From: an archaeon
GTDB lineage: Archaea > Thermoproteota > Thermoprotei > Thermofilales > JAPDKD01
Reading direction: 5' to 3'
NCBI GenBank assembly: GCA_029258735.1
Contig: JAPDKD010000029.1
Coordinates: 1 to 42,125 of the forward strand
DNA length: 42,125 bases
The number at the start of each line of letters is the position of its first letter. Within the stretch, counting starts at the first letter, position 1. The notes beneath the pieces were generated by a model that was given only the letters and a program-made list of their open reading frames with translations, did no database searches and was not told where the DNA came from. The translations under genes were made by a program, and so were the position numbers. Positions 23,554 to 41,269 of the stretch are shown one piece after another.

Positions 23554-24903
23554 ATGAAAATAGTTGTTGTGGGTTACGGCGCCGCGGGAATGACTGCTGC
23601 CAGCTACGCTGCGCTCACTAATAGAAAGGCTGAAATCGTAGCCTTTGAAAAAAGAAGCTATGCTGTCTATCATCCATGCTCGCTTCCCGACCTAATCAGC
23701 GGGATTGTGAAGTCGCCTGAGCACCTTAAAGAGCCGCCTCCCCGACTTCCAAGGTTGAAGGTTTATACATCCACTGTTGTTAAGGAGATTAAAAGAGGAG
23801 AGAAGAAAGTAGTTGTGCAGGACTTAAAGAGTGGAAAAGAGTGGGAGGAAGACTATGACAGGCTTATTCTTGCAACAGGCTCGTTCCCCTATGTTCCCCG
23901 CGTTATAAAAATCTTAAATAGCGATGGCGTCCACGTGCTGAAGAAGGTGGAAGATGCTGAAGCTATTTTGGAACTCGCGAACAAGTATAGGCGGGCTGTT
24001 GTCGTTGGAGGCTCCTTCATAGGCATTGAGACTGCCCATGCGTTGAGGAAAAAGGGGCTGGAAGTAACTTTAATTGAGTATTTTCCCCAGGTGATGCCCG
24101 GCAAGCTATACGAGCAGCTTGCAAGGGTCGTTGAAAAGGCCCTAGAGGAGGAAGGCATTGTTCTAAAGCTTGGCGTGGGTGTGAAGGAAATTTCGGGTGA
24201 AGTGGGCAATAAGAAAATTATTGCAGGAGATGAAGAGGTAAGCGGAGACTTTGTTGTAATGGCTACTGGCACGAGACCTGATGTAGAGTTAGCTAAGAAG
24301 GCTGGCCTCGAGATAGGCGAAAGCGGAGGAATAAAAGTAAATGTAAAAATGCAGACTTCAGACCCCTCGATATACGCCGCGGGGGACAACGCGGAAGTGA
24401 TCAATATTGTTACGGGGCAACCCATGCTTAGCCTCTTGGGAAGCACAGCCGTGAAGATGGGAAGGGTTGCAGGCATTAATGCTGCTGGCGGCGAAGCTAA
24501 GTTCCGGGGAGTTGTTAACGTCTGGATAGTTAACATTGAAAGCTTAAGGTTTGGTGGTGCTGGGATAACTTTTGATCAGGCTAAGAAACTGGGGTTAAAT
24601 GCTGTCGCTGTTACAGTGCAGGTTCCAGAGAAGCTGGAAATATATCCTGACGCGCACGAGATGACTGTGAGGCTGATTGCTGATAAAGACTCTGGAAGAA
24701 TACTTGGCGGCCAAATTCTTGGTAAAGAGGGTGTACTATGCCGCCTAGACGTGCTAGCTACGGTGCTTTCTCGCGGAATGACGGCAGAAGAGCTGGCTGA
24801 GCTTGAGCTAGCATATACTCCTAGCGTGTGTGAGATTATCGATCCGCTTCACGTAGCGGCCGATGCCCTCCTGAAACGTCTTCGCAGATATAAAACTATC
24901 TAA
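23554..24903 (+). CDS. FAD-dependent pyridine nucleotide-disulfide oxidoreductase, CoA-disulfide reductase/NADH oxidase-like
   Basis: 'VVVGYGAAGMTAASYAA', active-site Cys context 'YHPCSLPDLISG', 'AVVVGGSFIGIETAHALRKKG', 'PSIYAAGDNAEV'. Confidence 0.85.
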   Translation: MKIVVVGYGAAGMTAASYAALTNRKAEIVAFEKRSYAVYHPCSLPDLISGIVKSPEHLKEPPPRLPRLKVYTSTVVKEIKRGEKKVVVQDLKSGKEWEEDYDRLILATGSFPYVPRVIKILNSDGVHVLKKVEDAEAILELANKYRRAVVVGGSFIGIETAHALRKKGLEVTLIEYFPQVMPGKLYEQLARVVEKALEEEGIVLKLGVGVKEISGEVGNKKIIAGDEEVSGDFVVMATGTRPDVELAKKAGLEIGESGGIKVNVKMQTSDPSIYAAGDNAEVINIVTGQPMLSLLGSTAVKMGRVAGINAAGGEAKFRGVVNVWIVNIESLRFGGAGITFDQAKKLGLNAVAVTVQVPEKLEIYPDAHEMTVRLIADKDSGRILGGQILGKEGVLCRLDVLATVLSRGMTAEELAELELAYTPSVCEIIDPLHVAADALLKRLRRYKTI

Positions 24904-27900
24904 TTTTTTCTTTTACCGTTTTGTCTATAAAGCGCTTGCCAAGTTAGCATAGTTTTCCTTATTTCATCCACAACGGAGTAAATGAGGTTCATGTAATGTT
25001 CTCCGGTTACCGACTTAGGCGTTATAACTAATTCTACGGAATAATACTTTTGGCTTTCCCTGCGATACCGCAACAGAATCACTGCGGACGCTCTTCCCTC
25101 AGATACGAGGTCAGCGTCTATTTCCAGAATCTTTTCGGAACCTAGGTCTTTTATATGTATAAGTGTGCGAAGAAGAACCGAATGCTGCGGATACGTGGAC
25201 TCGATTCTTCTCTTTACGAATTCCAAGTGTTGCCCGATAAGGTTAGCGTCTATTCTGAATGGAAGGAACTCTTTAACTTCTCCGCCTGTCATTCGCTTGA
25301 AGCTCCATCGCCTGATCAGGCCCGGAACAGCTTGTAAAGACGCTTTTTCAGCAGGTTTCAGCCCAGCTACCACGCCAGTTATGACTGAAAGCAGGAGAGC
25401 GGTTAAAAGCCATTCCGGAGTAAATGATGGCGTAACTCCAAGTATTTTGCTTGCTTTATCTGCCGCTACAAGTGCCGCGAGCATTGAGTAGCCAGCTACG
25501 GATGCACCCAATAATACTGCTTCAAAGATGAAAATGAGGCTTACGTGAGAGGGATTCATGCCTAACGCCGTGTATATTGATAATTCTTTTCTTCTCTCAT
25601 ATACTGACGCTATCATGGCGTTCGCTACCGTGAAGCCGCTTAGGAGCATGACCATTATCGCCTCCAACCTAGACGCTTTTACTCCAATCGTTCTGTAGAA
25701 GGTGTATGCTATCCCATCTTTGCCGTAGGTTACTGGCACTCCTAGCTGCTCGACTAGCTTCTTGGCAGCTTCTTCTGCTACTTTTTCGTCAGGTATATAG
25801 AACGCATAGCCTATAAATCGCGCTCCGAGTTTAGACGCCTCTTTGGGCGGAACCACAGCTATTTCTGAGGAACGTATATACTGTTTTCCGCTTCCGCGTT
25901 CACCGTGAATTATTATCCAGGGACGTAGGGGCGCTCCGTTTATATCGCTGATTCCCGCTAGGCGGTATTCAGAGAAGATACCGGCGACTCTGAGTCTAGT
26001 TATTTCGTATAGGCCGTTGCTGCTGTATATTTCGACGATGTCGCCTACTTTTAATCCTGTCTTTTTCGCCGCATAGGAGCTTATCACTATCCACTTTTCG
26101 TCGGAAAAGTTTCCTCTAGCAATTAGCGTTGAGCCTATGCCTGATACTTTATCTTCCGCTTCGAAGTCCACGCCTATAACTCCGTTAATAATAGTTGTTC
26201 CTTTAGGCCCTTTTAGTCGAAGACCGAGTTTATAACTTGGCGACAAGTATCTTGGAGCTGGCACTGCATTGGGTGCCAGCTCCTTTACTAAAGACACTTC
26301 ATCGAGGTACAGCTTTACGCCGATTTTAATGGCCGGACCTTTCACAGATGTATGTATCGGGAAGGGGGTTTTCGTTATTGAAACCCCATAACCTACAGAT
26401 GAAAAAGCCACAAACGCAAAGACTGCTGCGGCCATAGTTATAAACGTTAAGATGCTTCTAAGAGGCCTTCTTCTTAGGTTTCTAGCTGCGAGACTTATGG
26501 CGGCGCTAAGAGTTGCTATAACGCCTGTAGACTCTCTTGATTGTCCTTCGAAGCTTTGTGGTATTTCACTGTAGATGAAATACGCTATTATGAATAGAAA
26601 TGAACCTATCATAAGCAATTTTCTAACGAAGAGCGGGTCATCCAGCGAGATTATACCGCTTCCCTCCGGGAAAAATTGGAATAGCAAAGCCCAAGACGCT
26701 AAGGTTAAAACTATAAACGTATAGATCCTTTTTTCTCCGTCAAATAATATCTGTGCGAACGCCAGTGAAGATAAGGCTAGCGCGGCTAAAATTATTGCAA
26801 ATATAGCGGAACCCGCCATACTCGACGACTTAGAATATTCGATGGATTTCTTCGCTATCGAAAAGGCCGATTCAGCAGCTAGTTTAGCGGAAATGTACCT
26901 TGAAGCGTTTAAATCCTTTTGGGCGCGTAGTAGAAGCTCTTTCGCTTCTTCTAGAAGGTTTTTAGCGGCTTGAGAGTAAGCAGTATATTTTGACGCTTGC
27001 TCATACGCTTTTTCGGCCTCTTCCACCGCAATGTATGCCTCGTTTATCGATTCTTCAGCAGCTTTTCTCCAGGCCTTATTTTGAAGGTCTTCTATGTATA
27101 GGAGCCTGCCAGGCTCATTCAGTTTTACGCTTGTTTCTACGTGATACCCTGAAAAGTATAGAAATACTCTAATGTATTCTTGCGATGTTCGTACTATTAG
27201 TATTCTTCTTCCGCTGGTCGTGGTATAAAGATAGTAGGGCACGTATTCCCAGGAAGCTTTAGATGAAACGTAGACGTATGTGCTGCTTGGGATTGTCGCA
27301 ATCATGTATCTTTTAGGCTTTAGAGCTGTTAAGCTATTTCCCTCGTATGTCAATAGGCTTGATTTTCCGTAGCATATTATTCTGGCATATTCTATAGATG
27401 CTTTTTGTAAATCTGCGGGTAGGTAGGCAATCCCGTCTTTCGATGTTCTCCACGCCCATATTCTTCTCGTCTTGTCGACTTTATATATTAGAAATATGTG
27501 CGCGTTCGGCAGCGGAGAGCCTAGCGAGTCTTTTATTGTCCTAGGTTCTAATCTTTTAGGAGCATAAAACGTGAAAACGTTAATGTCACCACTGTATACG
27601 CTTATGGGGATAGATTCTCCATTCAAAGTAATGTTAGCATGTATTATTGGCGTATACTTGTAGATAAGGTCATAAACGATTATAGTTGCGTTAGAGTTTT
27701 CCTGTTTTTCCACGCGGTATATTCGAATATTTTTCTTCTGGGATATGCCCACACGGGAGGAGTTAGATACTACGATAATTACTTTGGAGAATGATAATAG
27801 ATTTAGATGTATGATCGCATCGCTCCATATGCTTATTGGGTAAAAGTCTATGTTTAGTTCTTCAAGAACGTTTTTTAGCCTTATATAGTATACGCCTGGG

Positions 27901-28478
27901 TAAATGTTTATTTCGAATTTTTCTCTATCGACAACTCTTTCAATATATGTTGGTCCCTTCAATGTGAAAAGAGATAGGGGCGGGTTTAGAGGCCCAGAAT
28001 ATTTTACAGCTAATTTTATAGTCCCTTTATGGAGTTTTTTAGTTGTTTTGCTAAGCGCACTTACAGCAGCATTGATCGGATCTTTACTCGTTTTTATAAT
28101 TAATCCATTGCCTTTTTCTATTGTTTCTTCACGCGAGTAATTACCGCTTAATATTACCACTCCTCCACTTTCCGCGTACTCTAGCAAAGTTTTAGATAGC
28201 TTTCTCGCCACTACGGCGTCGGCGAGTAGAGTGGAGCAGTTTTCCAAGTCTAGAAATGGGGGTGGCGATGAAACATGCACCATTGTCCCGTTCACTTCGT
28301 ATGTTTCAGGCGTTAGATTTCTGTCTAGAAACCATATTACCACGTTTCTTGGGTTTGATTTAACAATTGCGATGAAATTTATTGTTGAGAAGAAGATTAG
28401 TAGTACTATAAAGAGTGATAATGGGTGATTCGACCTTATGAACCGCCGAAAAGTGTGGTTCGGAGGCATACTGCTCAT
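24900..28478 (-). CDS. Large FtsX/MacB-type permease-family membrane protein with extracellular N-terminal domains and distinct C-terminal domain
   Basis: N-terminal TM/signal; extracellular region; helical 'AEEAEKAYEQASK' segment; 'AARNLRRRPLRSILTFITMAAAVFAFVAF' (MacB PCD entry); 'VYERRKELSIYTALGMNPSHVSLIFIFEAVLLGA' (FtsX). Confidence 0.8.
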   Translation of the reverse strand: MSSMPPNHTFRRFIRSNHPLSLFIVLLIFFSTINFIAIVKSNPRNVVIWFLDRNLTPETYEVNGTMVHVSSPPPFLDLENCSTLLADAVVARKLSKTLLEYAESGGVVILSGNYSREETIEKGNGLIIKTSKDPINAAVSALSKTTKKLHKGTIKLAVKYSGPLNPPLSLFTLKGPTYIERVVDREKFEINIYPGVYYIRLKNVLEELNIDFYPISIWSDAIIHLNLLSFSKVIIVVSNSSRVGISQKKNIRIYRVEKQENSNATIIVYDLIYKYTPIIHANITLNGESIPISVYSGDINVFTFYAPKRLEPRTIKDSLGSPLPNAHIFLIYKVDKTRRIWAWRTSKDGIAYLPADLQKASIEYARIICYGKSSLLTYEGNSLTALKPKRYMIATIPSSTYVYVSSKASWEYVPYYLYTTTSGRRILIVRTSQEYIRVFLYFSGYHVETSVKLNEPGRLLYIEDLQNKAWRKAAEESINEAYIAVEEAEKAYEQASKYTAYSQAAKNLLEEAKELLLRAQKDLNASRYISAKLAAESAFSIAKKSIEYSKSSSMAGSAIFAIILAALALSSLAFAQILFDGEKRIYTFIVLTLASWALLFQFFPEGSGIISLDDPLFVRKLLMIGSFLFIIAYFIYSEIPQSFEGQSRESTGVIATLSAAISLAARNLRRRPLRSILTFITMAAAVFAFVAFSSVGYGVSITKTPFPIHTSVKGPAIKIGVKLYLDEVSLVKELAPNAVPAPRYLSPSYKLGLRLKGPKGTTIINGVIGVDFEAEDKVSGIGSTLIARGNFSDEKWIVISSYAAKKTGLKVGDIVEIYSSNGLYEITRLRVAGIFSEYRLAGISDINGAPLRPWIIIHGERGSGKQYIRSSEIAVVPPKEASKLGARFIGYAFYIPDEKVAEEAAKKLVEQLGVPVTYGKDGIAYTFYRTIGVKASRLEAIMVMLLSGFTVANAMIASVYERRKELSIYTALGMNPSHVSLIFIFEAVLLGASVAGYSMLAALVAADKASKILGVTPSFTPEWLLTALLLSVITGVVAGLKPAEKASLQAVPGLIRRWSFKRMTGGEVKEFLPFRIDANLIGQHLEFVKRRIESTYPQHSVLLRTLIHIKDLGSEKILEIDADLVSEGRASAVILLRYRRESQKYYSVELVITPKSVTGEHYMNLIYSVVDEIRKTMLTWQALYRQNGKRKN

Positions 28479-28950
28479 CCATGCAATATTATCAATGTTA
28501 TCCGTCTATCAACTCCCTCTATTTTCCGAGTTTTTAAATACTTTGCTGTATTCGGCAGTTGTGGGGTCGGCGGTAGCATTGGGGTTAATTAGCGTTAAAG
28601 CAGGGTTGTTAGCTGCCTTAATTACATACATGGCGTCTGTTCTTTTTTCTTTAAACAACGTGGGTTTTGCTCAAGCCTTTCTTTACTGGCTTAGCCTTCT
28701 CTTTGAGGTTGGTTTCACAGTTTTAGTGTCATGCGCATTCATAAATCAAATTAGGGTTGAAAAGATTGTTGCATGGACTTTTATTTCTAATTTCTTAGCT
28801 ATATTGACTTTAGCAGTACTAGAGTATGGTAGAAATCCTGACTATGTTTTTAGCGTTATTTTGCCTTGGTCGACTCCTCACCTGCTACTTTCTGCCCTTA
28901 TGACCCCTGTTTTCTATTTTCTTTATTCCAGCAAAATCCACCAGGGATAA
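28438..28950 (+). CDS. Hypothetical polytopic membrane protein
   Basis: 170 aa ORF with ~4-5 hydrophobic helices; overlaps both neighbours (41 nt at the 5' end, 66 nt at the 3' end). Confidence 0.55.
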   Translation: MNRRKVWFGGILLIHAILSMLSVYQLPLFSEFLNTLLYSAVVGSAVALGLISVKAGLLAALITYMASVLFSLNNVGFAQAFLYWLSLLFEVGFTVLVSCAFINQIRVEKIVAWTFISNFLAILTLAVLEYGRNPDYVFSVILPWSTPHLLLSALMTPVFYFLYSSKIHQG

Positions 28951-30708
28951 TAGTATTATTGTAATTAGTAATGCAACGTCGACATTAAGTGCTTTCATTA
29001 TGTTTAGTTTTACTGGTACGGGTTTGTTGTCGTCTTCTCCGGGCACTATATCGTTTGGGTCTACTTGAACTGTTAACGGTTCAAACGGCAGAGATATATC
29101 TTTCTCGCCTTGTGTGCCATTCACCCATAAAGTTACTGTTATAGATGTTAGCCTCGTGTTTATTCTTACTGGGACCAGAGCTATAACAGGGTCTCCCGTA
29201 TTTTTTACCTTTAGGTGCAAAGTATAGGTTAGGCCTGTTTGTTTTGCGTAGGTTTCAACGCTATAGTGCGGCACGCCTGACCCGTATACCCAGGAATTAA
29301 AGAACCAGTCTAGGCTTGCCCCGTAAACTCGCTCGGCTTCTACTTTAAAGTCTCTTAGTTTGCATATTTTAAATCGGTATTTTTCCTGTAATCTGTGCAT
29401 GAGTTCAAAATATTTTGCATCACCCATCAACCAGTTTAGCATTCGCAGAACCATTGCTCCCTTGTTATATACTATAGTGAAGTATGCTTGCGAATCTGCG
29501 CCGAAATCGAACACTGACCACGCTATCGGATAATCCTTGTCCCTAATTTTTAGGAACCGATAGTAGGGGCGCCTGACTGTTAAGTCAAATATTTCTTCGA
29601 ACTTTTTTTCACCGTACACCCACTTAAAGTACAGAGTGTCAGAATACTCGGCAAAGGGCTCGTCCATTATGGGTTCAAGTCCTTCGTGGTTTCCAACCAT
29701 GCCGTACCACCAGTTGTGTGCTGTTTCGTGCGCTACGACAAGTTCTAGGATTGTTTTTCTTTGTGGCGAGTATAAGCTTGATGTTATCATTACGAACATC
29801 GGATACTCCATTCCTCCGAACCAGCCATATACTTCGACAACACGGAATTCTGAGTAAGCGTATTCACCGTAGTATTTACTGTAAAGCTCTATAGATTTTA
29901 TTGCTGTGTTAAGCGCTATTTCGCCTGCCACTTCGTGGCCTAAAAGATAATAGGAATAAACCTTTACTTTTCTTCTGCCGACACTAGCCTCGCCGCTTAC
30001 AACCTCATAGTTCTTACTGACAGCGGCGGCGAATTCCCTTACTGGAAGCGGCGTATACCATTTATATATCCATTCGCCAGCTTTCTTTTTTATTTCATCT
30101 AGCCTGCCAGTAGCAGCCATTACATAGCCTTCGGGCACGGAGAAAGTTATGTTGTAGTATGCGCATTCAAAATAGAAGCTTTCTCCAGCATCCCAATACG
30201 GGTCTAGATTCCATCCCCGCTCGTCGTACACTGCCATGATAGGGTACCAGTGGGCTAAAGCGAATACTCCTGCGTAGTAGCCGAAACGATCTTCTTTAAT
30301 CGGAATTTTTACTTTAAACGATATTTCTATTTTTATAGAACTTGAAGGTAAAAGGGGCGTGGGTAAGAAGATTTTCAGAATTGTTCTATCTTCTCCTGTT
30401 ACAATAAATTTTGCCTCCTTTCCGTCAATACTTATTTTCCTTATTTCAATGGAGCCCCCTAGGCTTTTAAATGAGGGAGCGTTTGGATATACATGTAGAT
30501 AAAGCTCGTTAAATCCTAGGTCGCGCCTGTTTGTGTAATAGATTGTTTCGTTAGCTTGAATTTCTAGTTTTTCAACGTTTAACTTTGCTGATATTATATA
30601 CTTGTCATAAGAGTTTACCGCAGCAACCGCAAGAGTGGGAGTTGAACAGGTGCAGAAAAATAGAAAGGTGATAATAGTAATTAGAATGAAAAATTTATTG
30701 TTGTGCAT
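28885..30708 (-). CDS. Membrane-anchored M1 family (gluzincin) metallopeptidase
   Basis: N-terminal signal-like helix; 'GGMEYP'; 'VVAHETAHNWWYGMVGNHEGLEPIMDEPFAEY' = HExxH-18-E; C-terminal TM 'VALLITIILLSLVDFAGI' followed by basic residues. Confidence 0.88.
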   Translation of the reverse strand: MHNNKFFILITIITFLFFCTCSTPTLAVAAVNSYDKYIISAKLNVEKLEIQANETIYYTNRRDLGFNELYLHVYPNAPSFKSLGGSIEIRKISIDGKEAKFIVTGEDRTILKIFLPTPLLPSSSIKIEISFKVKIPIKEDRFGYYAGVFALAHWYPIMAVYDERGWNLDPYWDAGESFYFECAYYNITFSVPEGYVMAATGRLDEIKKKAGEWIYKWYTPLPVREFAAAVSKNYEVVSGEASVGRRKVKVYSYYLLGHEVAGEIALNTAIKSIELYSKYYGEYAYSEFRVVEVYGWFGGMEYPMFVMITSSLYSPQRKTILELVVAHETAHNWWYGMVGNHEGLEPIMDEPFAEYSDTLYFKWVYGEKKFEEIFDLTVRRPYYRFLKIRDKDYPIAWSVFDFGADSQAYFTIVYNKGAMVLRMLNWLMGDAKYFELMHRLQEKYRFKICKLRDFKVEAERVYGASLDWFFNSWVYGSGVPHYSVETYAKQTGLTYTLHLKVKNTGDPVIALVPVRINTRLTSITVTLWVNGTQGEKDISLPFEPLTVQVDPNDIVPGEDDNKPVPVKLNIMKALNVDVALLITIILLSLVDFAGIKKIENRGHKGRK

Positions 30709-30717
30709 TTTTATCTT

Positions 30718-33700
30718 TCACTGTAAGCCTTCTTTTCTAGCTTTGTTTATGTATTCCTGTCGTTCTTCTGGCTTTAGTCCCCTCCATATTAGTAGCTGTT
30801 TTCTTATTACGTCTGTTATTTGCCGAACGCCTCTAATCCACACGTGTTCTGTACCGCTCAGCCTCTTGAATATGATGGTCCAAGTTGTAGTCTTACCGAC
30901 CGTGTCTACCTTTAGCTGAGTGGTTGTAGCCACTCCCCAGTCGAAAGGTTTGATTCTTACCCTCATGTCCAGCACTCTGCTGCGCCCTCTTTCCACTTTT
31001 TCCTCTCTGTATTTAATGCGTTCTACCATGAAGGGTCCTTCTGCCTGTTCTGACTGGAAAAGCTGTAGGTATTCTTTGAGATATAGTACGGCTCCGGCTA
31101 CTTCGGCTCGGGATATTACGAATGGTATTTTCACGATGTAGGTGTCTCCTCTCCTTACTGCGTGTGCTTCAAGCCTCCATTTTCTCTCGAAGCTCGGCGT
31201 TACTAGCCGTGACGCGTAGCGGACAGGGTAGGCTGTTGCGGCTAGCGTTATTCCGATGGAAGCGAGTATCGAGAATACTATCCACATTGACCCTGCGTTA
31301 ACTTTTAGCCCCGTGACAAGCGTTGGCATGGAGATTCCGGCCATGTATCCGAGGAATGAGCTTACTATAGCTACTATGGTGAACTCCATTAGGAATATTC
31401 CTGCTACGTGCAGTGGTGAGAGTCCTACTGCGCTGAGGATTCCTATCTCTTTGGTTCTTTCGTAGACTGCTCCGAGTATGGAGCTAAGTATGGTAAACAT
31501 CAGAAGAACTTCCGGTATTAGAGCTTCTTGCCCTGTTACTTGCTGAGATGTTAGGGTTGCCATGCGTGTTACTTCATATTTTCCGTCTTTGCTAAGAGCA
31601 TAATATACGTTGTATCTGAAGAGTTGTGTAATTTTTTCAGCGACTTGTGGAGCCTTCTTGGGGTTCTTCAGCGTTATATGTATTGCGAATACTTGTCCTC
31701 CCATCTGTTTTGCTACCTCAACAGGCACAATAACTACCTCGGATGGATCCATGGGCTGGGCAGAGCGGAAGGCAACTCTTCCTCCGGCTTCTACTTCTCT
31801 GGAAAATGGAATAATTACGATTCCGTCGAGGTCTTTTATTGTTGATAGATAGACTTTTGAGTTGTTAATGATTCCTACTATTTCGAATCTTTTACCTAGA
31901 ATTTCTATTTTTCCGCCTATTCTAGCGTCCACTCCAGCTGATTTAAGGAGGTCTGCTAGTTCTGCAGATATTATGCAGACTCTCTCATTGCTATTTATGA
32001 ATGGCCGGCTTCCCGGGGTGAAGATAGCGTCCCAGTTTTCTTCGAAGGCTTTGATTATTTTGAAGTCTGCCGGGTCTAAGCCTAGAATCGCTCCTATAGT
32101 TATGGGCTGTCCCGCTGATGTTCTGGCTATTTCTATTTGCTGTCCTATTGGGTAGTAGAAGATTACTTCTGTTATATGTTCAATGTCGTCTCCGAACGCT
32201 GACTGTATCTGCTTTGACAGCAGTGACGGCAGCGGTCTAAATGAGCTTTCGCGTATTAGTAGTCCTTGGTAGCCGTAGCTTACCTCGTATGTTGCTACAG
32301 GCGCTACGTATCTCGTCGAGAGCACCGAGATTATTGAGACAAACGCCATTGTTGCTATCATTATGGAGATTATTAATAGGGAAGTTCTAACCCACCTTCT
32401 CCTCAGATTTCTGAGACCTAGAGATGCCGCCATCAGCATTGCGCTGAATTTGTCTAATTCTGCGAAGTGTTTTCCTACGAACTTCGTCCTTAGCTCCTTT
32501 ATTGCTTCTGTCGCGTGGCTGAAGGAGATTACTAGCGGCACAATAGACAGGATGAGCATTAGGAATGCTATCGCTACGAGCGGTAGGCTGGCTATTAAGG
32601 TGAAGCCTGGGTGGTTAAATACCATGAACGCTATGGCTGCTAGGAATATTGCTATGAACGCTGCAGCGCGCTTCTTAAGGTCTTCAAATTCGAATATTAG
32701 CCTCTCTAGCAGGTACGCGAAGGGCAGGGCTAACAGTAGGAAGAATACCGAGGCGTATGATGCGTCGAAGAACATTGTTCTTATCGCTACGTAGGCTTTT
32801 CGCTCAAGCAGTAGGGCTAGTACCGCGCTGCCTCTTGCTTCATACCATTTTTTCTGGGCGTAATATTCTTGCGCTTTCTTCCAGTTTGCCGCTGACTCGT
32901 TCATGTTTCTTTCTATGGGGTCTACGAAGAGACCTGTTCTCTTGGCTTCTTGCAGGCGTTTTTCATCGACTTTTCTGAAGCCGATGTAGTTTTCGAAGAT
33001 TGTGAATGGCATTATTACCTGTGTGCCGGGCTTTATGTTGTATCCTCTGGTTTTGTTGTTGAATATGGCTGCATACCACCTGGTTCCACCTAAGTCTACC
33101 ACTGCGTCGAATCTGGGCGTTTGAGCTAGGGCGGGGTTTTCGAAGACGACTAGCGTGCCCGTTGACATTTCTGGTGTTGGTACGAAGCCTACGTTTTCCC
33201 ACACAAAGCCGAAGAATCTCGCGTAGTTCTGAGTATAGTGGTCTATTACTAGGACTGGCAGGAATTCGGATACTGGTGATGCAGTATCGGGGTCAAGCAC
33301 GTCAAAGAACACTAGTGTTCCTGCCCTAAATACGCTGGATTCTATTTTGTTGACTGCTTGGTGCATTCTGGCTCTGAATGCACCTCGCATATATGTGCCG
33401 AAGTCTATTGCGTATTTTACTGGTCCCTCCGGCGGTTCGTCGTTGAAGGGGAAGATGGCATATGTCGCGATGTCGCTGGGCGCGATTGTGTGAATTACAT
33501 ATGTGCCGTTGGAGTCTGTTTTTACTACAAAATAGTGTCTCACGAAGAAGGGTAGCTGTCTAGCTGTTGACATTCCAAAGACTATTACTATCGAGTTGGG
33601 GACGGGTTTGTATACGCCTTCTGATTCGTTGAAGAATACTACTTTTCCTTCAAGGGTTCTTACACGTCCTGGAGCGTAGAGTTTTAGTATATCGTCAGGA

Positions 33701-35103
33701 TAGTCGTCGAGTAGGTATAGTAGAAGGTTTAGATAGGTGCTGCCTAGTTTTTCCGCGACTTCGCCGGGCTTTAGGTCTTTTCGCGAGGTTAATGTTTCGT
33801 AGGTATCTTGAGGTGTTGCTGTTCCCTCCCATATTGCTGGCGACCCGAAAGCTATACCTGGAATCTTTACCATTTCGAATATTTCGAAGTCGAAGTATCT
33901 TAGCCTTAGAACTTCTGCCTGAGTGGGGCTGTAGTCCCATAGTATGAGTTTGAAGCCGTAGTGTTTAGAGTAGGTTTCATTTACCAGCTTTATGAAGTCC
34001 TGCCGTACTGCAAATGTTGCTTGATCGTAGTCTAGCGGATAGTAGCTTTGGAAGTTTCCTCTATTGAATATTCCTGCATTTGCCGAGGATGATGAGAGGG
34101 ATAGTTCGAAAACAAAGCGTATGTCGTTGAGTAGGTCGTCTTTATGCTTGTATACAAACTCTCTGGCGCCTTGTAGGGCTTGGCGATATCCTGAGAAGAA
34201 GCCAAATATTAGTGTGTATCTGTGTTTTTTAGCTGCGGCTATTCTCGCTATTTCTAGCAGAGTTGCGGCGCTTAATGCGTCATCCGCTCCTTGAGCTAGA
34301 GCTGGTATTGCAGACCATGTGTCGTAGTGGGTTATTGCCATTATTGCTTCTTTCCTTTCACCGGGCAGTGTAGCTATTACGTTGTATGAAGGCTTGATTA
34401 CGTACTCCATTTTTACTACTATTTTTCCCTGCATCCCCAGCTGGTATAGTTTGAAGAAGTCTTCCTCGTTTACAGCTATTCGTGGGAAGTCTATTGGTAC
34501 CCAGAATCTCTTCCAGTAGTTATCGTACTCTGTGAATCGTGTTTGATTATTTATTAGGAATATAATTCCCTTCGCCCCTAGGTAGGCTGCCCATCTCCAA
34601 GCTTTCTCACTATCCCATTTCAGCGCAACTATCTTGTCTTTAACATCTATGCCTTCGAAGTCTCTTAGATCTCCGTACTTTGTTTCTACGTATATTACCT
34701 CTCCTTCAAGCCCGTCAGTGTAGGATGTTTCGATCGTATTGGGAAGTAAAGCGTAGGCCTTTATAACCTGCGCGCCTATTTGCGTATATAATACTAGCTC
34801 TGAATGCTGCTCGTATGGTACAGTTACGTTGAACTCCTCCAGCGTAACGTTATATCCATAGCTTGAAAGCACATCCGCAATGTATTTCGCCGCTTCTTCA
34901 CATTGAGGATATCCGGAGATTCGGGGTGCAAAGCTGGAAAGTTTTCTTAGGTGCTCTAGGACGTTGTTAACGTTTACATTAAGTTTTGACGGCTCATAGT
35001 TAGGCGGCAGCGCATATGTACTTGTTGAATAGAGACTCGATAGTATAAACACTGACAGTAATAATATTATTACCAGCTTTTTTCTTATCCTCATATACCT
35101 CAC
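30718..35103 (-). CDS. Fusion protein: signal peptide + PA/M28 peptidase-like domain (apparently degenerate) + carboxypeptidase-regulatory-like domain + FtsX/MacB-type permease + C-terminal domain
   Basis: M28-like 'NVIATLPGERKEAIMAITHYDTW...GADDALSAATLLEIARI'; CarboxypepD_reg-like 'LEGKVVFFNES...VKTDSNGTYVIH'; 'GLRNLRRRWVRTSLLIISIMIATMAFVSII' and 'VYERTKEIGILSAVGLSPLHVAGIFLMEF' FtsX signatures. Confidence 0.82.
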   Translation of the reverse strand: MRYMRIRKKLVIILLLSVFILSSLYSTSTYALPPNYEPSKLNVNVNNVLEHLRKLSSFAPRISGYPQCEEAAKYIADVLSSYGYNVTLEEFNVTVPYEQHSELVLYTQIGAQVIKAYALLPNTIETSYTDGLEGEVIYVETKYGDLRDFEGIDVKDKIVALKWDSEKAWRWAAYLGAKGIIFLINNQTRFTEYDNYWKRFWVPIDFPRIAVNEEDFFKLYQLGMQGKIVVKMEYVIKPSYNVIATLPGERKEAIMAITHYDTWSAIPALAQGADDALSAATLLEIARIAAAKKHRYTLIFGFFSGYRQALQGAREFVYKHKDDLLNDIRFVFELSLSSSSANAGIFNRGNFQSYYPLDYDQATFAVRQDFIKLVNETYSKHYGFKLILWDYSPTQAEVLRLRYFDFEIFEMVKIPGIAFGSPAIWEGTATPQDTYETLTSRKDLKPGEVAEKLGSTYLNLLLYLLDDYPDDILKLYAPGRVRTLEGKVVFFNESEGVYKPVPNSIVIVFGMSTARQLPFFVRHYFVVKTDSNGTYVIHTIAPSDIATYAIFPFNDEPPEGPVKYAIDFGTYMRGAFRARMHQAVNKIESSVFRAGTLVFFDVLDPDTASPVSEFLPVLVIDHYTQNYARFFGFVWENVGFVPTPEMSTGTLVVFENPALAQTPRFDAVVDLGGTRWYAAIFNNKTRGYNIKPGTQVIMPFTIFENYIGFRKVDEKRLQEAKRTGLFVDPIERNMNESAANWKKAQEYYAQKKWYEARGSAVLALLLERKAYVAIRTMFFDASYASVFFLLLALPFAYLLERLIFEFEDLKKRAAAFIAIFLAAIAFMVFNHPGFTLIASLPLVAIAFLMLILSIVPLVISFSHATEAIKELRTKFVGKHFAELDKFSAMLMAASLGLRNLRRRWVRTSLLIISIMIATMAFVSIISVLSTRYVAPVATYEVSYGYQGLLIRESSFRPLPSLLSKQIQSAFGDDIEHITEVIFYYPIGQQIEIARTSAGQPITIGAILGLDPADFKIIKAFEENWDAIFTPGSRPFINSNERVCIISAELADLLKSAGVDARIGGKIEILGKRFEIVGIINNSKVYLSTIKDLDGIVIIPFSREVEAGGRVAFRSAQPMDPSEVVIVPVEVAKQMGGQVFAIHITLKNPKKAPQVAEKITQLFRYNVYYALSKDGKYEVTRMATLTSQQVTGQEALIPEVLLMFTILSSILGAVYERTKEIGILSAVGLSPLHVAGIFLMEFTIVAIVSSFLGYMAGISMPTLVTGLKVNAGSMWIVFSILASIGITLAATAYPVRYASRLVTPSFERKWRLEAHAVRRGDTYIVKIPFVISRAEVAGAVLYLKEYLQLFQSEQAEGPFMVERIKYREEKVERGRSRVLDMRVRIKPFDWGVATTTQLKVDTVGKTTTWTIIFKRLSGTEHVWIRGVRQITDVIRKQLLIWRGLKPEERQEYINKARKEGLQ

Positions 35104-35120: not shown

Positions 35121-37052
35121 CTAATATATTTCAAACGCCACCGCCTGCCTCACGAAGCTTAACGCCGTCGCTAAACTGATTACTACGCTGGAGCCTGCAA
35201 ATATGCCTGCTGCAACTGTCATAATATACTTGTCTGCCCATTCTTTGCCCAGCTTCTTCTCCATGAGCTTCTTTAGGAGCAGGCCTAACACGATACCTGT
35301 TGAGTTACTGGGCATGTCCAGTATGCCCGCTACGAATCCGAAGAGCGTTGGAAGGCCGAAAAACGGAGACAAATAGGGGAGGAAGCGCGGAATTACTCCT
35401 ATAATGCTTCCCACAATAAACGAGCTGATAATGTAGTCCGGCTTGAATATTGTCCCCAGCTGTCTTGTTATGAATAAAGCTCTTAGAAGAGCGTCGGCCG
35501 GATAGCTTGGAGCGGGCATGAATCTTGACGGCACATCATACACGTACCATAACATGCCAGCTATTATAAGCCCTATGGCCCAAGTCATGTATGTTCCGAG
35601 AATGTGAGCTTTTGCTATGCTGAAAGGTTTGGTGTTTGTTAGTTGGGCTGCTTTGTAGCCTATACATATTGTAGCTCCCCCTATTGGCTGTGCAAGGAAC
35701 GGATTAAACCATACCCAATAGGACATTGGATTTTGCGGTCCAGGTACTGGGGTGGTTAACCATATTGTTACCTCGTTAAGATAGGGTATCGTGAAAAGCC
35801 CGCCTATTATTCCGGCAGATCTCGCTCCAATTATTGTATTTAAGAAGCTGAAAACTGTAGTTATAAGTATCGTCCCTATTAGGAAAGGTATACCCATTGG
35901 AGTAAACATGTAAGACAGACTAGCGAGAGTTAGTGCTGAAGCCAAGAACATTATAATTGCCATTTTCCCCGGTATTACTCCGCTTTTACGCGCGACGTCT
36001 GCAGGCATTTGGAGGAATGTTTTAATAGCTCCCGCTATTTGCTTTGCGCTTAAAATAGTTGGAACTATTCCTATGGCTACGAGTAGGCCTACTGCGAAGC
36101 TTAGCCAAAAGAATAGCTGTGGCTCGTACCATGCCCCCGTTAGAGTCCCCGGTATGAACATCGGTCTGCCTGGAGTATATGGATATTCTTTTAATCCCAT
36201 GCTTATGAATATGGGGGGCAGTATGACATAAGCTACTATTGATGTTACAAACTGCCATATAATCACTATTTCTGGGATTATTAAACCGAGAGCTATGACT
36301 AGGAGATTTGTCGTTATTCCTGTCGTTGCTCCATGAATTATAGGGTCTATCATTTCGGTGAAATCGTAGTGTATTGGGCTGATTATCATGAGCCGCCTGC
36401 CTAGAATTATTTCAGTCAGAGAGGGGAAGAGGATACGTATGGATTCGTAGATTGCGGCCATCATGGTGGCTATTGCGAAAATCCTGTATCGTTCCTTTTC
36501 GCCTCCTGAGAGAGCGATTGCTATTTCTGCGGCTACAGCGCCTGTGGGGAATGGTAGCTTTTCTACTTCAATGAATAATGTTCTAGCTACGAATGATAAC
36601 GAAATATCTGCGGCCAATACAAGCGTCATTGATAAGAGCCCTATTCCAATAGGTAATAGCCAATCGGGATGCCATATCATTCTGTGTATCATTGCGGGGC
36701 TGTTCTCAGGCGGGCAGGACCACCATGGAATGTTCTGTGCTATGCCGAACTGCTTCGTAATAGGGCTTTTCTTTAAATAAACTGTAAAAAGGAAGCCACC
36801 AGTGTATCCTGCTGCTATTGAAGCTCCCCAGCGGATCGTTGCTAGCTCGCTGGCTGAGAGAGGCGACATCATTATGAGGCCGAGCTCTCCGAAGATTAGC
36901 ATCGTGGCGTATGCCGCCGCTATTGTTCCGACAAGCTGACCAGTTGCTAAGTAAACCCATAGTAGAGCTGGCATCATAACGAGTGAAGAGAATAGCATTG
37001 CTAGAAGGGTTCTGGAGGTCAGTCCTTCCTGGAGCTGAACTGTGCTGGACAT
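35121..37052 (-). CDS. OPT-family-like oligopeptide transporter
   Basis: 643 aa polytopic protein; 'VEKLPFPTGAVAAEIAIAL', 'IIGARSAGIIGGLFTIPYLNE', 'IPRFLPYLSPFFGLPTLFGFVAGILDMPSNSTGIVLGLLL'. Confidence 0.65.
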   Translation of the reverse strand: MSSTVQLQEGLTSRTLLAMLFSSLVMMPALLWVYLATGQLVGTIAAAYATMLIFGELGLIMMSPLSASELATIRWGASIAAGYTGGFLFTVYLKKSPITKQFGIAQNIPWWSCPPENSPAMIHRMIWHPDWLLPIGIGLLSMTLVLAADISLSFVARTLFIEVEKLPFPTGAVAAEIAIALSGGEKERYRIFAIATMMAAIYESIRILFPSLTEIILGRRLMIISPIHYDFTEMIDPIIHGATTGITTNLLVIALGLIIPEIVIIWQFVTSIVAYVILPPIFISMGLKEYPYTPGRPMFIPGTLTGAWYEPQLFFWLSFAVGLLVAIGIVPTILSAKQIAGAIKTFLQMPADVARKSGVIPGKMAIIMFLASALTLASLSYMFTPMGIPFLIGTILITTVFSFLNTIIGARSAGIIGGLFTIPYLNEVTIWLTTPVPGPQNPMSYWVWFNPFLAQPIGGATICIGYKAAQLTNTKPFSIAKAHILGTYMTWAIGLIIAGMLWYVYDVPSRFMPAPSYPADALLRALFITRQLGTIFKPDYIISSFIVGSIIGVIPRFLPYLSPFFGLPTLFGFVAGILDMPSNSTGIVLGLLLKKLMEKKLGKEWADKYIMTVAAGIFAGSSVVISLATALSFVRQAVAFEIY

Positions 37053-37235: not shown

Positions 37236-39203
37236 TTATCCGCCCATTGCTTTAATCGCTGCACCTATTCCGCTGACTACCGCTCCGAATAGTCCGCCTG
37301 CTGCTGCTCCAGCGAAGAATGGTCTGGCTACTTGTTCGTCTAGCTTGGTGCCGCCTATCTTTACCACTAGCCACTTAATTATTAGTATTGGAAGGAATGG
37401 CCAGCCCCAGTCGATGTTTGCAGAGCTGCTCATAAGTACTGTGAGGCCTGCGACTATTGGTATGAATGGTATGGTGAATGCTACTCTCGCTTGCAGTATT
37501 GGTATGGCTATTGCTAGTAACAGCAGTATTATGAATACTCCGAGTTCGTCAGGTGATGGGCCATACCAAGTGAAGCCTCCTCTCACGTAGTTTCTCGCTC
37601 TCGGTATTGCTAGGACCCAGAGGCCATCTATGAATGTGCCGAATACGCCGTGGTTTATTCCGTATGAGTAGGTGAGGTAAGCCTCGAACATTTGTCCTCC
37701 GAAGGAGCCGATGACCAGGCCGATTATTATGGCTATGATTATGGTCTTTATTGAGTTTACGCGTCCTAGGAAGGCGAACCTTGAGCTTTCGAAGAAGGCT
37801 GAGGCGCCTATGTCGCCTCGGGTGAATAGTCTGCCCTGCATTGTGAAGCCGACTAGTGCTGCGGAGGGCTGGCTCGTGTCGATTAAGCCAGCGGCGTAGC
37901 ACATTTCGCCTACTACTGAAGATGCGTGTGCGTCCCATGTGTATTGTAGGTTGATGTATCCTAGTCCCATTACGCCCCACATTTGTAGGACGTATATCAG
38001 GAATAGGGATAGGAGGAACGCTGGCACTGCTGGGGCGCCTAGTGCAATGCCTATGCCAGTCAAAATTATTACTGCCACAAATGATAGTATCCACTGCATT
38101 TGCGGAGATACGAAGTCGTATTCTGGGTTCTTATCCTTTAGGGTTTCTGCTATATACTTCCATGCCGCTATATATGCGCCTATTACGCCTCCAGCTAGCA
38201 GGGCTACGCCTAGCGGGTGCAGCTTGTATGGTGCAAAGTACCACGCGTCAAAGTATATGTCGTCAAAAGCTGCTGATGGATCAAATTCTATTATTCCCGC
38301 GCTAATGTAGAACGGTACAACGACGAAGTTCACTATGAGCATTGTTATCATTATTGTAATTAGGGCGTCCATTGGGGCGAAGTAGCCGAACCAGCTCCAT
38401 GGGAAGACGCTGGCCATGTCTAACCCTATCGCCGCTCCAGGAATCATGCTCCATAGAATGCCAGGCTGTCCCGGTGTGTCACCTACATGACCTGGAATTA
38501 CTGGCACTCCAGGCCACAGAGTTGAAACCAGATATCCTTCGGTGAAGATTACGGTTATAAAGCCTATGAATAGGCCAAAGAGTAGCCAGTTTCTTCTTGA
38601 TCCTAGCAAGGGGACTTTCTCATCTGGAGGCTTTTCGACCGCAAGTGATACAGCTGTGAATGCAGCCGTGGTGGCCGGATACGGGAGACGCTGGATTTCT
38701 ACTATTTGTCGCCTCATCGGCATTAGACCAAATATTGATATAAAGACCAACACTAAAATAAGAACAAAGCCGACGATGAATTGTCCAAATAATTCGCCGA
38801 ACGGCGTTGGCTGTCCCCCGGGCAGAGCAGCTTCATAAAGGTGCTTTGGCAGCGTCAGCCAGCTTGGTACGAACGCCTTAAAGTCTGCCAGCCATGCCGG
38901 AGCTTCTGCGTTGGGGAGTACTAGTGCGCCTACCCAGAAGAACCATCCTGGGTAGGTTGCCGCAGATCCATATACCATTGCGTAGATTACGACGTATTCT
39001 GCAAAGGTGAACTTAATGTTGGTGTAGAGCTGGATTAGTGCTAGTATTACTACGGTCATGACGCTGACTTCTGCGGTTGCTACGAAGCCGCTGGTTGGCC
39101 CCAGTATAGCGTCAGCGAATACTAAGGCCAAGGAGCCAATTATTCCGACGATTATGGCCTTAGGGGTGAAGGCTTTTTCGACGGGCTTCTCGGTTGCGGA
39201 CAT
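37236..39203 (-). CDS. OPT-family-like transporter (second, divergent copy)
   Basis: 655 aa polytopic protein; 'IVEIQRLPYPATTAAFTAVSLAVEKPPDEKVPLLGSRRNWLLFGLFIG' resembles OPT 'LPFP' region; adjacent and co-directional with 35121-37052. Confidence 0.6.
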   Translation of the reverse strand: MSATEKPVEKAFTPKAIIVGIIGSLALVFADAILGPTSGFVATAEVSVMTVVILALIQLYTNIKFTFAEYVVIYAMVYGSAATYPGWFFWVGALVLPNAEAPAWLADFKAFVPSWLTLPKHLYEAALPGGQPTPFGELFGQFIVGFVLILVLVFISIFGLMPMRRQIVEIQRLPYPATTAAFTAVSLAVEKPPDEKVPLLGSRRNWLLFGLFIGFITVIFTEGYLVSTLWPGVPVIPGHVGDTPGQPGILWSMIPGAAIGLDMASVFPWSWFGYFAPMDALITIMITMLIVNFVVVPFYISAGIIEFDPSAAFDDIYFDAWYFAPYKLHPLGVALLAGGVIGAYIAAWKYIAETLKDKNPEYDFVSPQMQWILSFVAVIILTGIGIALGAPAVPAFLLSLFLIYVLQMWGVMGLGYINLQYTWDAHASSVVGEMCYAAGLIDTSQPSAALVGFTMQGRLFTRGDIGASAFFESSRFAFLGRVNSIKTIIIAIIIGLVIGSFGGQMFEAYLTYSYGINHGVFGTFIDGLWVLAIPRARNYVRGGFTWYGPSPDELGVFIILLLLAIAIPILQARVAFTIPFIPIVAGLTVLMSSSANIDWGWPFLPILIIKWLVVKIGGTKLDEQVARPFFAGAAAGGLFGAVVSGIGAAIKAMGG

Positions 39204-39454
39204 TTTTTCACCCTTGTTCGTAAAGCAATTAATAATAAATACTTAATAAATATTAGGTCGGCTGTAGAGATAAATTTATATAATACCTTTTAAGGTGTTC
39301 TTTTCTAAAATTCTTTTGAACTTTGCTGATTTCATGGTAAAAAATTATTACGTTAATAGTCGAACTTTATTTTGCTCGCCGAAGTAATATACGACAAACA
39401 ACCTCACGCATTCGATAAAAATTTTATGTGCTGAAACTAATCCTAAAGGGAGAG
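39204..39454. promoter_or_regulatory. Divergent intergenic promoter region
   Basis: AT-rich spacer between divergent genes with a TATA-like 'AAATTTATATAATACC' (~39271-39286) on the + strand; TFB/TBP sites inferred by motif only. Confidence 0.35.
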
Positions 39455-41269
39455 ATGTCGTTTAGTACTAAATATCGAGAAAAATACATTAAAAGGATGA
39501 TCTTAAGTTTCATATTACTAATTAGCCTAAGTAGTTTATCACCACATAGAGTTTCGACGCATCCGCATTTCACGTTTACCATCTTGATCACAAATAACAA
39601 TGTAGAAGGGCTTTTACCCGTAATGAAGATAAGCAATTATTCAACCCTTGTTTTTTCTAATTATTGTGATATAGGCTTTTCTACGTTTGAGAAAAACGAG
39701 AAAAGCGTTTTAATAAACCTCTCTTCACCATTAAGTATTATATTACATTTAATAAATAATATGCATGTACATCCAGACCAGATATTTATTTCCAACTCTT
39801 CGTGTTCCCTCTCAGCATATTATTCAGCAGGCCTCTCAGGTTCGGTAATTGTAAATATTGGAAGAAATGTAAGTTATAAAGATTTTCTGAAAGAACTCAA
39901 GCAGCATGGAATCACGGGAATAAAGACGTGCGGTTCAATTAAAAATATTGAGATCCAAGGTTCGAACAGACTTGTCGTTACATTTAAGGATGATGCGCTT
40001 TCGCGTTTAACTGCGGTTTATGCCGGCATGTCTAATGCGCATTTTCTTGTAGCTGAAGACTTAAACAGCATACGAGATGCTATAAAGCGGTATAATATAA
40101 CGTCAGTTGTGTATGTGATTTCTTCGAAGAATTTAATTAAAATGGGCCTTGTAGAGCTGTATAAACCAGTTATAGAGGCATATTCTGATAGATTTTTCCA
40201 CGTAAATATTGGCATAATTTCCGGATACAGTGATTCATGTGCAGTAAACTTTGCGTCGAGATCTCTTTACTATCTTGCTAAAGGAGTAAATGTTCAATCC
40301 GCTCTCTTGGCATATATGGAGGACGTTGAATTGTTGGCGGAAAAAATTATTCGTGAATTGGATAGAAGCGGAGTAAGTATATATCAAAAACTAGTTTCCT
40401 TTAACGAGCATGGAAACCTTACTAGAGAGAGTTTAATTGATTCTTTGAAGCAAGCTTCTGGCATAGTGTTCATTAACCTTCACGGTAATCCCTACGGAAT
40501 GGCTAGGACAACTACAGGTCCCTACGTGGTTACTGCACACAGTCTCGAAGAAGTTAATTCTAGGAACATAATTGTTACGTTATCTTGTTCAACATGCAAT
40601 TTTAACGAAATACTCAATCCGAAGAACAGTATTGCTCTTGCATTTATTTCTAAGGGCGCTTTAGCGTATATTGGGGCTAGAAAGGTTGAATACGCTGGCG
40701 AGCTTGAAACAAGCACTGCTTTTCCAGAACTAATTACGTATATGCTGCTTCGAGGATACACTCTAGGTTCAGCTGTGCGATGGGTGAACAATATACATAT
40801 TCGAGCCGCAAGTGGCGTTGACCCGTGGATTGCAGCTTATACTTGCTTGCTCGGCGAGCCCGACTTACGTCTCTTAAATGCTACTGAGCAAGAAGACGCG
40901 GCTATAAAATTGAATGAGAATGAGATTAGCGTAAATATTCTTAGGGAGACGTGCTGTGTTACATCAAGGATCGAATTTCCTTATGCGGCTGAAGAAGTAA
41001 AATTTGAATTAAAAAATCCCGATGTTAGACGTGTTCTATTTATAACAAAGGAAAGGGGCAAGTATATTTTAAACATATTTTTGACAAAAAAGATAAGCAA
41101 AGAGGTTGGTGATTTTAAGCCAGGAGATGTAGTTATTATTAAATATTATAAGAAGTTATCGGTTATTGATTTACTACCATATGCTGCTGCTACTTTTATA
41201 GCCTTCTTAGCCGTTATTCTTTATGTAAAAAGGAGAAAAAGAAAAATTTTAAGGCCAGATTCCTCTTAG
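39455..41269 (+). CDS. Membrane-anchored clan CD cysteine peptidase-like protein (C25/CHAT-like)
   Basis: Signal-like N-terminus 'RMILSFILLISLSSLS'; 'GIVFINLHGNPYG' (His) and 'NIIVTLSCSTCNF' (Cys) dyad context; 'SIALAFISKGALAYIGARKVEYAGE...LLRGYTLGSAVRWVNN'; C-terminal TM + 'KRRKRK'. Start at ATG 39455 preceded by GGGAGAG. Confidence 0.65.
   Translation: MSFSTKYREKYIKRMILSFILLISLSSLSPHRVSTHPHFTFTILITNNNVEGLLPVMKISNYSTLVFSNYCDIGFSTFEKNEKSVLINLSSPLSIILHLINNMHVHPDQIFISNSSCSLSAYYSAGLSGSVIVNIGRNVSYKDFLKELKQHGITGIKTCGSIKNIEIQGSNRLVVTFKDDALSRLTAVYAGMSNAHFLVAEDLNSIRDAIKRYNITSVVYVISSKNLIKMGLVELYKPVIEAYSDRFFHVNIGIISGYSDSCAVNFASRSLYYLAKGVNVQSALLAYMEDVELLAEKIIRELDRSGVSIYQKLVSFNEHGNLTRESLIDSLKQASGIVFINLHGNPYGMARTTTGPYVVTAHSLEEVNSRNIIVTLSCSTCNFNEILNPKNSIALAFISKGALAYIGARKVEYAGELETSTAFPELITYMLLRGYTLGSAVRWVNNIHIRAASGVDPWIAAYTCLLGEPDLRLLNATEQEDAAIKLNENEISVNILRETCCVTSRIEFPYAAEEVKFELKNPDVRRVLFITKERGKYILNIFLTKKISKEVGDFKPGDVVIIKYYKKLSVIDLLPYAAATFIAFLAVILYVKRRKRKILRPDSS

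Follow-up and report, generated by a model that had tools for sequence, protein, structure and literature searches.

A conserved gene module joining an M28 pseudopeptidase–permease fusion with two OPT-type carriers in Thermoproteota

The stretch of DNA analyzed here (the window; 42,125 nucleotides, contig JAPDKD010000029.1 of GenBank assembly GCA_029258735.1, from an archaeon of the Thermofilales) carries on its minus strand, at 30718–35103, a gene with a GTG start for a protein of 1461 amino acids (aa), in which an M28-type pseudopeptidase is fused to a type VII (MacB/LolC-like) permease. Comparative genomics firmly established that this fusion gene belongs to a conserved module with two genes for OPT-type transporters, here called OptA and OptB. 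An earlier note on the sequence had interpreted the protein as a sensor or receptor coupled to a MacB-like permease; the dead M28 domain and the MacB-like permease were borne out, whereas the interpretation as a stand-alone sensor is probably incomplete, since the evidence favours a transport module. The pairing with two OPT carriers, which were absent from that interpretation, is the main point. We propose that the fusion protein probably, although far from certainly, serves a heteromeric OptA/OptB uptake system as its receptor subunit, capturing substrate outside the cell, and that this system may have a shared ATP-binding cassette (ABC) motor.

Both partners are encoded on the minus strand next to the fusion gene. 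OptB (35121–37052, 643 aa), 17 bp from it, is an OPT-family transporter that matches the profile PF03169 (E 3.8e-11) and, by profile, the barley transporter HvYS1. OptA (37236–39203, 655 aa) is, according to family profiles, a diverged relative of OPT proteins that falls into the DUF6785/DUF6784 type; the window copy has no Pfam match, and among 25 members 23 matched DUF6785 and three matched OPT. The OptA family as a whole mostly matched DUF6785 together with DUF6784, the OptB family mostly OPT, and the two family profiles are homologous (hhalign E 3e-40). To compare gene neighbourhoods, 73 non-redundant family loci were used, chosen by the fusion gene and not by OPT. Clustering of the neighbours placed OPT-type genes (120 in all) within 9 kb at 65 of the 73 loci, with the runner-up cluster at 13 loci; the OPT genes lie mostly 0–20 bp from the fusion gene, commonly in the orders OPT-fusion-OPT and OPT-OPT-fusion. 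In a tree the OPT proteins fall into two clades separated with a support of 100, and wherever a module has exactly two OPT genes (47 modules) it holds one OptA and one OptB. The window genome has three M28-type fusions, every one with an OptA-OptB pair of its own, and no such pair is found near the large FtsX genes with other ectodomains on contigs C20 and C21.

The obligate association also appears in gene content. Across 151 genomes, the fusion gene and OptB occur together in 22, the fusion gene without OptB in none and OptB without the fusion gene in one (Fisher p 1.5e-25, uncorrected for shared ancestry); that single genome (G140) has a fragment of the fusion gene, and the OptB of G105, counted among the 22, is only a broken remnant. 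The copy numbers of the two genes track each other across the same genomes (rho 0.92), and among 61 genomes of nearer relatives OptB was found in all 18 with a fusion gene. Even in Calditenuaceae-type genomes, where the fusion gene is on a different contig from OptA-OptB, the three are still present 1:1:1. In addition, the M28 domain, OptA and OptB have correlated distance matrices (r of 0.67–0.72), and this extends to paralogs of one genome. As a separate observation, at least seven copies of OptA (DUF6785) are found in G068, G089, G096, G110 and G116, and because most of them have no matching OptB or fusion gene, OptA appears to have a second, independent life.

The fusion protein is encoded in a single unbroken frame, as the earlier note had described, and all of its parts are given here by minus-strand coordinates. 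Hydropathy shows that the chain starts with a signal or anchor, continues through a long extracellular stretch and extra transmembrane (TM) segments into the FtsX core, and ends in a C-terminal domain. The signal peptide or membrane anchor (residues ~1–31, 35011–35103) was recognized in the sequence by a hydrophobic segment at 10–28. It precedes an ectodomain of PA and M28-like type (residues ~46–475, 33679–34968) and a beta-rich extracellular region (residues ~482–653, 33145–33660), which is seen in the predicted structure and has no Pfam match. Pfam matched Peptidase_M28 at residues 241–439 (E 1.4e-15), MacB_PCD at 907–1161 and FtsX at 1200–1299, all beyond the curated cut-offs. An AlphaFold model of residues 30–790 has an M28 fold (pTM 0.83), and its top Foldseek match is the M28 aminopeptidase 2ek8 (E 5.6e-28). 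A carboxypeptidase-regulatory-like domain, also claimed before, found no Pfam match in the fusion protein or in 23 relatives; instead, a PA domain was matched inside the M28 part in many relatives.

M28 aminopeptidases need six residues (H/D/E/E/D/H) for their two metals. A canonical stand-alone M28 of the window genome (L006) served as the active-site reference, with alignments to 2ek8 for the Glu pair and the late His; a HMMER alignment to 2ek8 maps the Glu pair in the same way. The window copy retains the first-ligand His259, in the motif THYDTW (residues 258–263), which had been recognized correctly but is located at 34315–34332 rather than at ~34321–34335, and Asp274 at the metal-bridging position (34282–34284), in the likewise preserved GADDALSAA. 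In the relatives, His259 is retained in 35 of 67 and Asp274 in only 17 of 67, and Asp261 of THYDTW is present in all 67. The substitutions proposed in the earlier note were all confirmed: Y306 and R307 (34183–34188) stand for the catalytic and the ligand Glu, S335 (34099–34101, in FELSLSSSS) for the ligand Asp, and A429 (33817–33819, at TATPQDTYE) for the late ligand His, with the T-P-x-D-T right after it kept. Glu is absent from both 306 and 307 in every aligned relative (306 is Asp in one), the late His is likewise missing from all of them, and Asp is present at 335 in 49 of 66. Most relatives have H-W at the Glu-Glu position (His at 306 in 52 of 67, Trp or Tyr at 307 in 50), so that a conserved SGHW-type motif usually stands where AEEx would be. 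Two of the six metal-site residues are left in the window copy, and three at most in any relative, Asp/Glu swaps counted. The alignments support a catalytically dead M28 fold throughout the family, a loss whose breadth had been understated. Arg208, Arg314, His306 and Glu407 (the last in 61 of 66 relatives) are newly conserved in the family, which suggests a remodelled pocket under selection.

The permease half begins, after a helical stalk, with extra TM segments ahead of the FtsX core (residues ~777–860, 32524–32775), probably three as judged from hydropathy and AlphaFold helices. The MacB-like periplasmic core and the FtsX TM core follow (residues 907–1299, 31207–32385; Pfam and Foldseek), the combination of an FtsX-type TM core with an extracytoplasmic core domain that marks type VII. 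The model of the permease half (pTM 0.55) is nearest in Foldseek to a pneumococcal MacB-like ABC transporter, LolCDE and MacB, with BceAB also matched. Between TM2 and TM3 lies the ATPase-coupling helix ERTKEIGILSAVGLSP (residues 1215–1230, 31414–31461), as defined for type VII ABC proteins (PMC5985334); its pattern, ERxREI...GLSP, is kept family-wide in the alignment. Together, the Pfam and Foldseek matches and this helix uphold the FtsX/MacB-type assignment. The C-terminal cytoplasmic alpha/beta domain (residues ~1303–1461, 30721–31197) has weak structure matches of the helix-grip/DcrB-like kind and is shared with the second FtsX protein of the window described below.

No Walker A motif was found in the window or beside the two other modules of the window genome, and no ATPase is encoded in the operon. 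Two candidates were rejected: the string LSGGEKER at 36512 is part of OptB and has no Walker A with it, and an ABC ATPase cluster near 12 of the 73 loci looks, from its sequence, ABC-2-like rather than MacB-like. A better candidate is encoded on contig C71 of the window genome, namely a mini-FtsX of 220 aa that has four TM segments, lacks an external domain and adjoins a LolD-like ATPase, as it does at most loci. Of the 22 fusion-gene genomes, 21 have a homologue of the mini-FtsX, against 6 of the remaining 129 (p 2e-19); in the nearer set the figure is 14 of 18 fusion-gene genomes. In the near-complete genome G099, the mini-FtsX, two ATPases, OptB, OptA and the fusion gene all lie within 14 kb, and a distance of ~10 kb separates the mini-FtsX from OptA-OptB in four genomes of the Calditenuaceae type. 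Presence also varies as a unit within families: G099 has all three parts and five other genomes of its family (f16) have none, and in family g76 four genomes have all parts and G146 none. Two further observations concern these loci. In Calditenuaceae-type genomes (L179–L182), the gene for a different large FtsX of ~1055 aa stands between that for the mini-FtsX and the OptA-OptB genes. The OptB remnant of G105 (G105:C53:24772-25272) is interrupted by four in-frame stops, and the genome has retained a fusion gene but is without a close mini-FtsX homologue; the parts of the module may decay together there.

On this basis, a mechanism can be proposed in which the path through the membrane is formed by OptA and OptB, probably as a heterodimer. 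The dead M28 ectodomain, seated on a MacB/LolC-type permease half with its ATPase-coupling helix retained, would bind the substrate and pass it to the OptA/OptB pair; for the window copy this would most likely be a peptide or amino-acid derivative freed by the M1 aminopeptidase encoded next door. The likely motor would be the single mini-FtsX with its LolD-like ATPase, whose genes lie elsewhere and which would serve all copies, and ATP-driven motion of the large subunit would open or load the OPT pair. The physical complex, the direction of import, the substrate and the coupling to ATP are what we infer from the genomic pattern. Several points weigh against the proposal. The known roles of type VII ABC proteins are extramembrane work or export and do not include the feeding of carriers, and OPT carriers are, as far as known, ion-coupled and need no ATPase. 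The association evidence is entirely genomic, and the co-occurrence statistics ignore shared ancestry. The mini-FtsX is missing in 5 of 39 fusion-gene genomes (G105, G010, G019, G025 and G036, all incomplete metagenome-assembled genomes, MAGs), and it occurs in several genomes without the fusion gene. Moreover, the mini-FtsX of the window genome (L146 749-1408 / G000:C71) is 100% identical in protein to that of a genome of a different family (G001:C99), and because of this identity misbinning in one MAG is likely.

The absence of an ATPase from the module and from the surroundings of the large FtsX genes examined in the window genome would also fit a receptor or scaffold without a motor, which captures substrate for an ion-driven OptA/OptB pair and whose FtsX half is a relic or an assembly platform. 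OPT carriers need no ATP, and the co-occurrence with OptB (22/22 and 18/18) is tighter than that with the mini-FtsX (21/22 and 14/18). We regard this explanation as unlikely, although it deserves real weight, because a relic should lose a coupling helix that is in fact conserved family-wide, and because the mini-FtsX and LolD-like ATPase co-occur with the module and cluster with it in some genomes. Less likely again is a Bce-like role, in which the pseudopeptidase would detect peptides outside the cell and control OptA/OptB while staying out of the transport path. Nicastrin-type pseudoenzymes do handle substrates, and type VII ABC proteins such as BceAB, matched by Foldseek, act in sensing (PMC5985334); however, the neighbourhoods of the modules show no conspicuous histidine kinase or constant regulator, and a subunit fits better with the 1:1 copy number with OptB and the correlated distances. 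It is improbable that the protein works in export or extraction like MacB or Lol and that the OPT genes are mere neighbours, as its nearest permease folds might suggest, for the two OPT clades are linked at 65 of 73 loci and the co-occurrence persists where the genes are unlinked.

Two explanations concern the protein itself. An M28 peptidase that is still active through a rewired metal site, built for instance on the conserved His306 or on the D-x-E at 405–407, could appeal to the conservation of His306, Asp335 and Glu407 among the relatives, but is very improbable: the catalytic Glu, the ligand Glu and the late His are missing in every aligned member, and the window copy is also without H306 and D335. 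Rescue of the site by nearby residues, raised in the earlier note as an alternative, was ruled out on the 67 aligned relatives. A misassembly or frameshift joining two genes had been raised as well, and the window genome is indeed a fragmented MAG of 139 contigs. This is refuted, and chance is excluded as well, by searches of Thermoproteota genomes, which found ~70 non-redundant relatives, mostly of ~1500 aa, with the same architecture and the fusion in one open frame, some of them in complete or near-complete genomes (G193, G099). Among the named relatives are members of Thermofilaceae, Thermoproteales, Bathyarchaeota, Brockarchaeota and Calditenuaceae; the contig scan of genomes used a closer family alignment and, by its match pattern, reaches near relatives only. 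Two more copies are found in the window genome: that on C3 is full-length, and that on C14 is truncated where the contig ends. Up to eight copies per genome were counted (M28 profile, 151 genomes), in genomes of roughly 1.2–2.3 Mb and at about one per OPT pair.

The neighbouring genes give hints of the substrate. Only 9 bp downstream of the fusion gene lies a gene for a secreted, membrane-anchored M1 aminopeptidase with an intact HExxH-x18-E motif (28885–30708, minus strand), and an M1 aminopeptidase also adjoins the ortholog in the nearest relative (G023, L041). A peptide substrate is plausible for the window copy because of this adjacency and its recurrence. The neighbours of other copies include MttB, glycoside hydrolases and Gfo/Idh oxidoreductases, which suggests that the modules differ in substrate. 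At L102, L106 and related loci, genes for MttB-type trimethylamine methyltransferases stand in the same operon-like runs as some modules, suggesting methylated amines or other non-peptide substrates there. The second large FtsX permease of the window (24900–28478, minus strand, 1192 aa) has the same membrane half and C-terminal domain with a different ectodomain; it is an associated gene and only a candidate member of the module. Two more large FtsX permeases are those on C20 and C21, and of the large FtsX genes examined in the window genome none is beside an ATPase. At 39428–41269 on the plus strand, divergent from the OPT genes, the window encodes a secreted homologue of C25 (gingipain-like) peptidases with a C-terminal TM segment.

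The module is common and amplified in Thermofilales, Bathyarchaeota, Brockarchaeota, Calditenuaceae and other Thermoproteota, lineages in which little is understood of how nutrients are taken up. If the proposal is true, it would provide a large uptake family for these uncultured archaea and a function for DUF6785/DUF6784 proteins; the model also predicts a particular complex of five proteins. That MacB-type proteins act by mechanotransmission is documented (PMC5985334), and type VII ABC mechanics would then be used beyond export or envelope work, for import. More tentatively, and with doubt prevailing, we suggest a new hybrid transporter class in which many modules, each equipped with a pseudopeptidase receptor and a heteromeric OPT pair of its own, would be served by one central mini-FtsX/LolD-type ATPase, so that ABC mechanotransmission would drive import through a secondary-carrier fold in an ECF-like layout.

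The open-licence literature yielded no relevant description of archaeal M28+FtsX, OPT+FtsX or DUF6785/6784, and no described system in which an OPT carrier goes with a receptor on the outside, an obligate second OPT partner and a permease of ABC type. The best profile and structure matches are M28 aminopeptidases (the Aneurinibacillus aminopeptidase 2ek8, BSAP and L006), which share the fold with the inserted PA domain; the fusion family differs in having a permease fused and in lacking the catalytic Glu, ligand Glu and late His in every member. Nicastrin is a precedent for an M28-fold pseudoenzyme that handles substrate, and the transferrin receptor, nicalin and nicastrin (profile matches 1.5e-17, 2e-10 and 2e-5) likewise use an inactive M28 fold for binding or scaffolding. 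These proteins, however, are eukaryotic and single-pass or partner-bound, with no FtsX fusion and no OPT link, and the fusion family is closer to 2ek8 than to them (nicastrin Pfam matches in 6 of 32). ECF transporters have one central motor and several substrate modules encoded elsewhere; they are an analogy without sequence relation, and the sharing of a motor in the archaeal system is suggested by copy number and co-occurrence. With the type VII ABC proteins MacB, LolCDE, BceAB and YbbAP, the fusion protein has in common the FtsX core, the periplasmic core domain and the conserved coupling helix, and it differs from them by its extra TM segments, giant M28 ectodomain and cytoplasmic C-terminal domain and by the lack of a fused or operon ATPase. 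Barley HvYS1 (7wsr) is an OPT protein like OptB, but it is a single-gene homodimer (PMC9691689), whereas in the archaeal module two OPT clades are strictly paired and joined by a receptor-like third gene. Each component comes from a known superfamily; it is the composite system that looks new.

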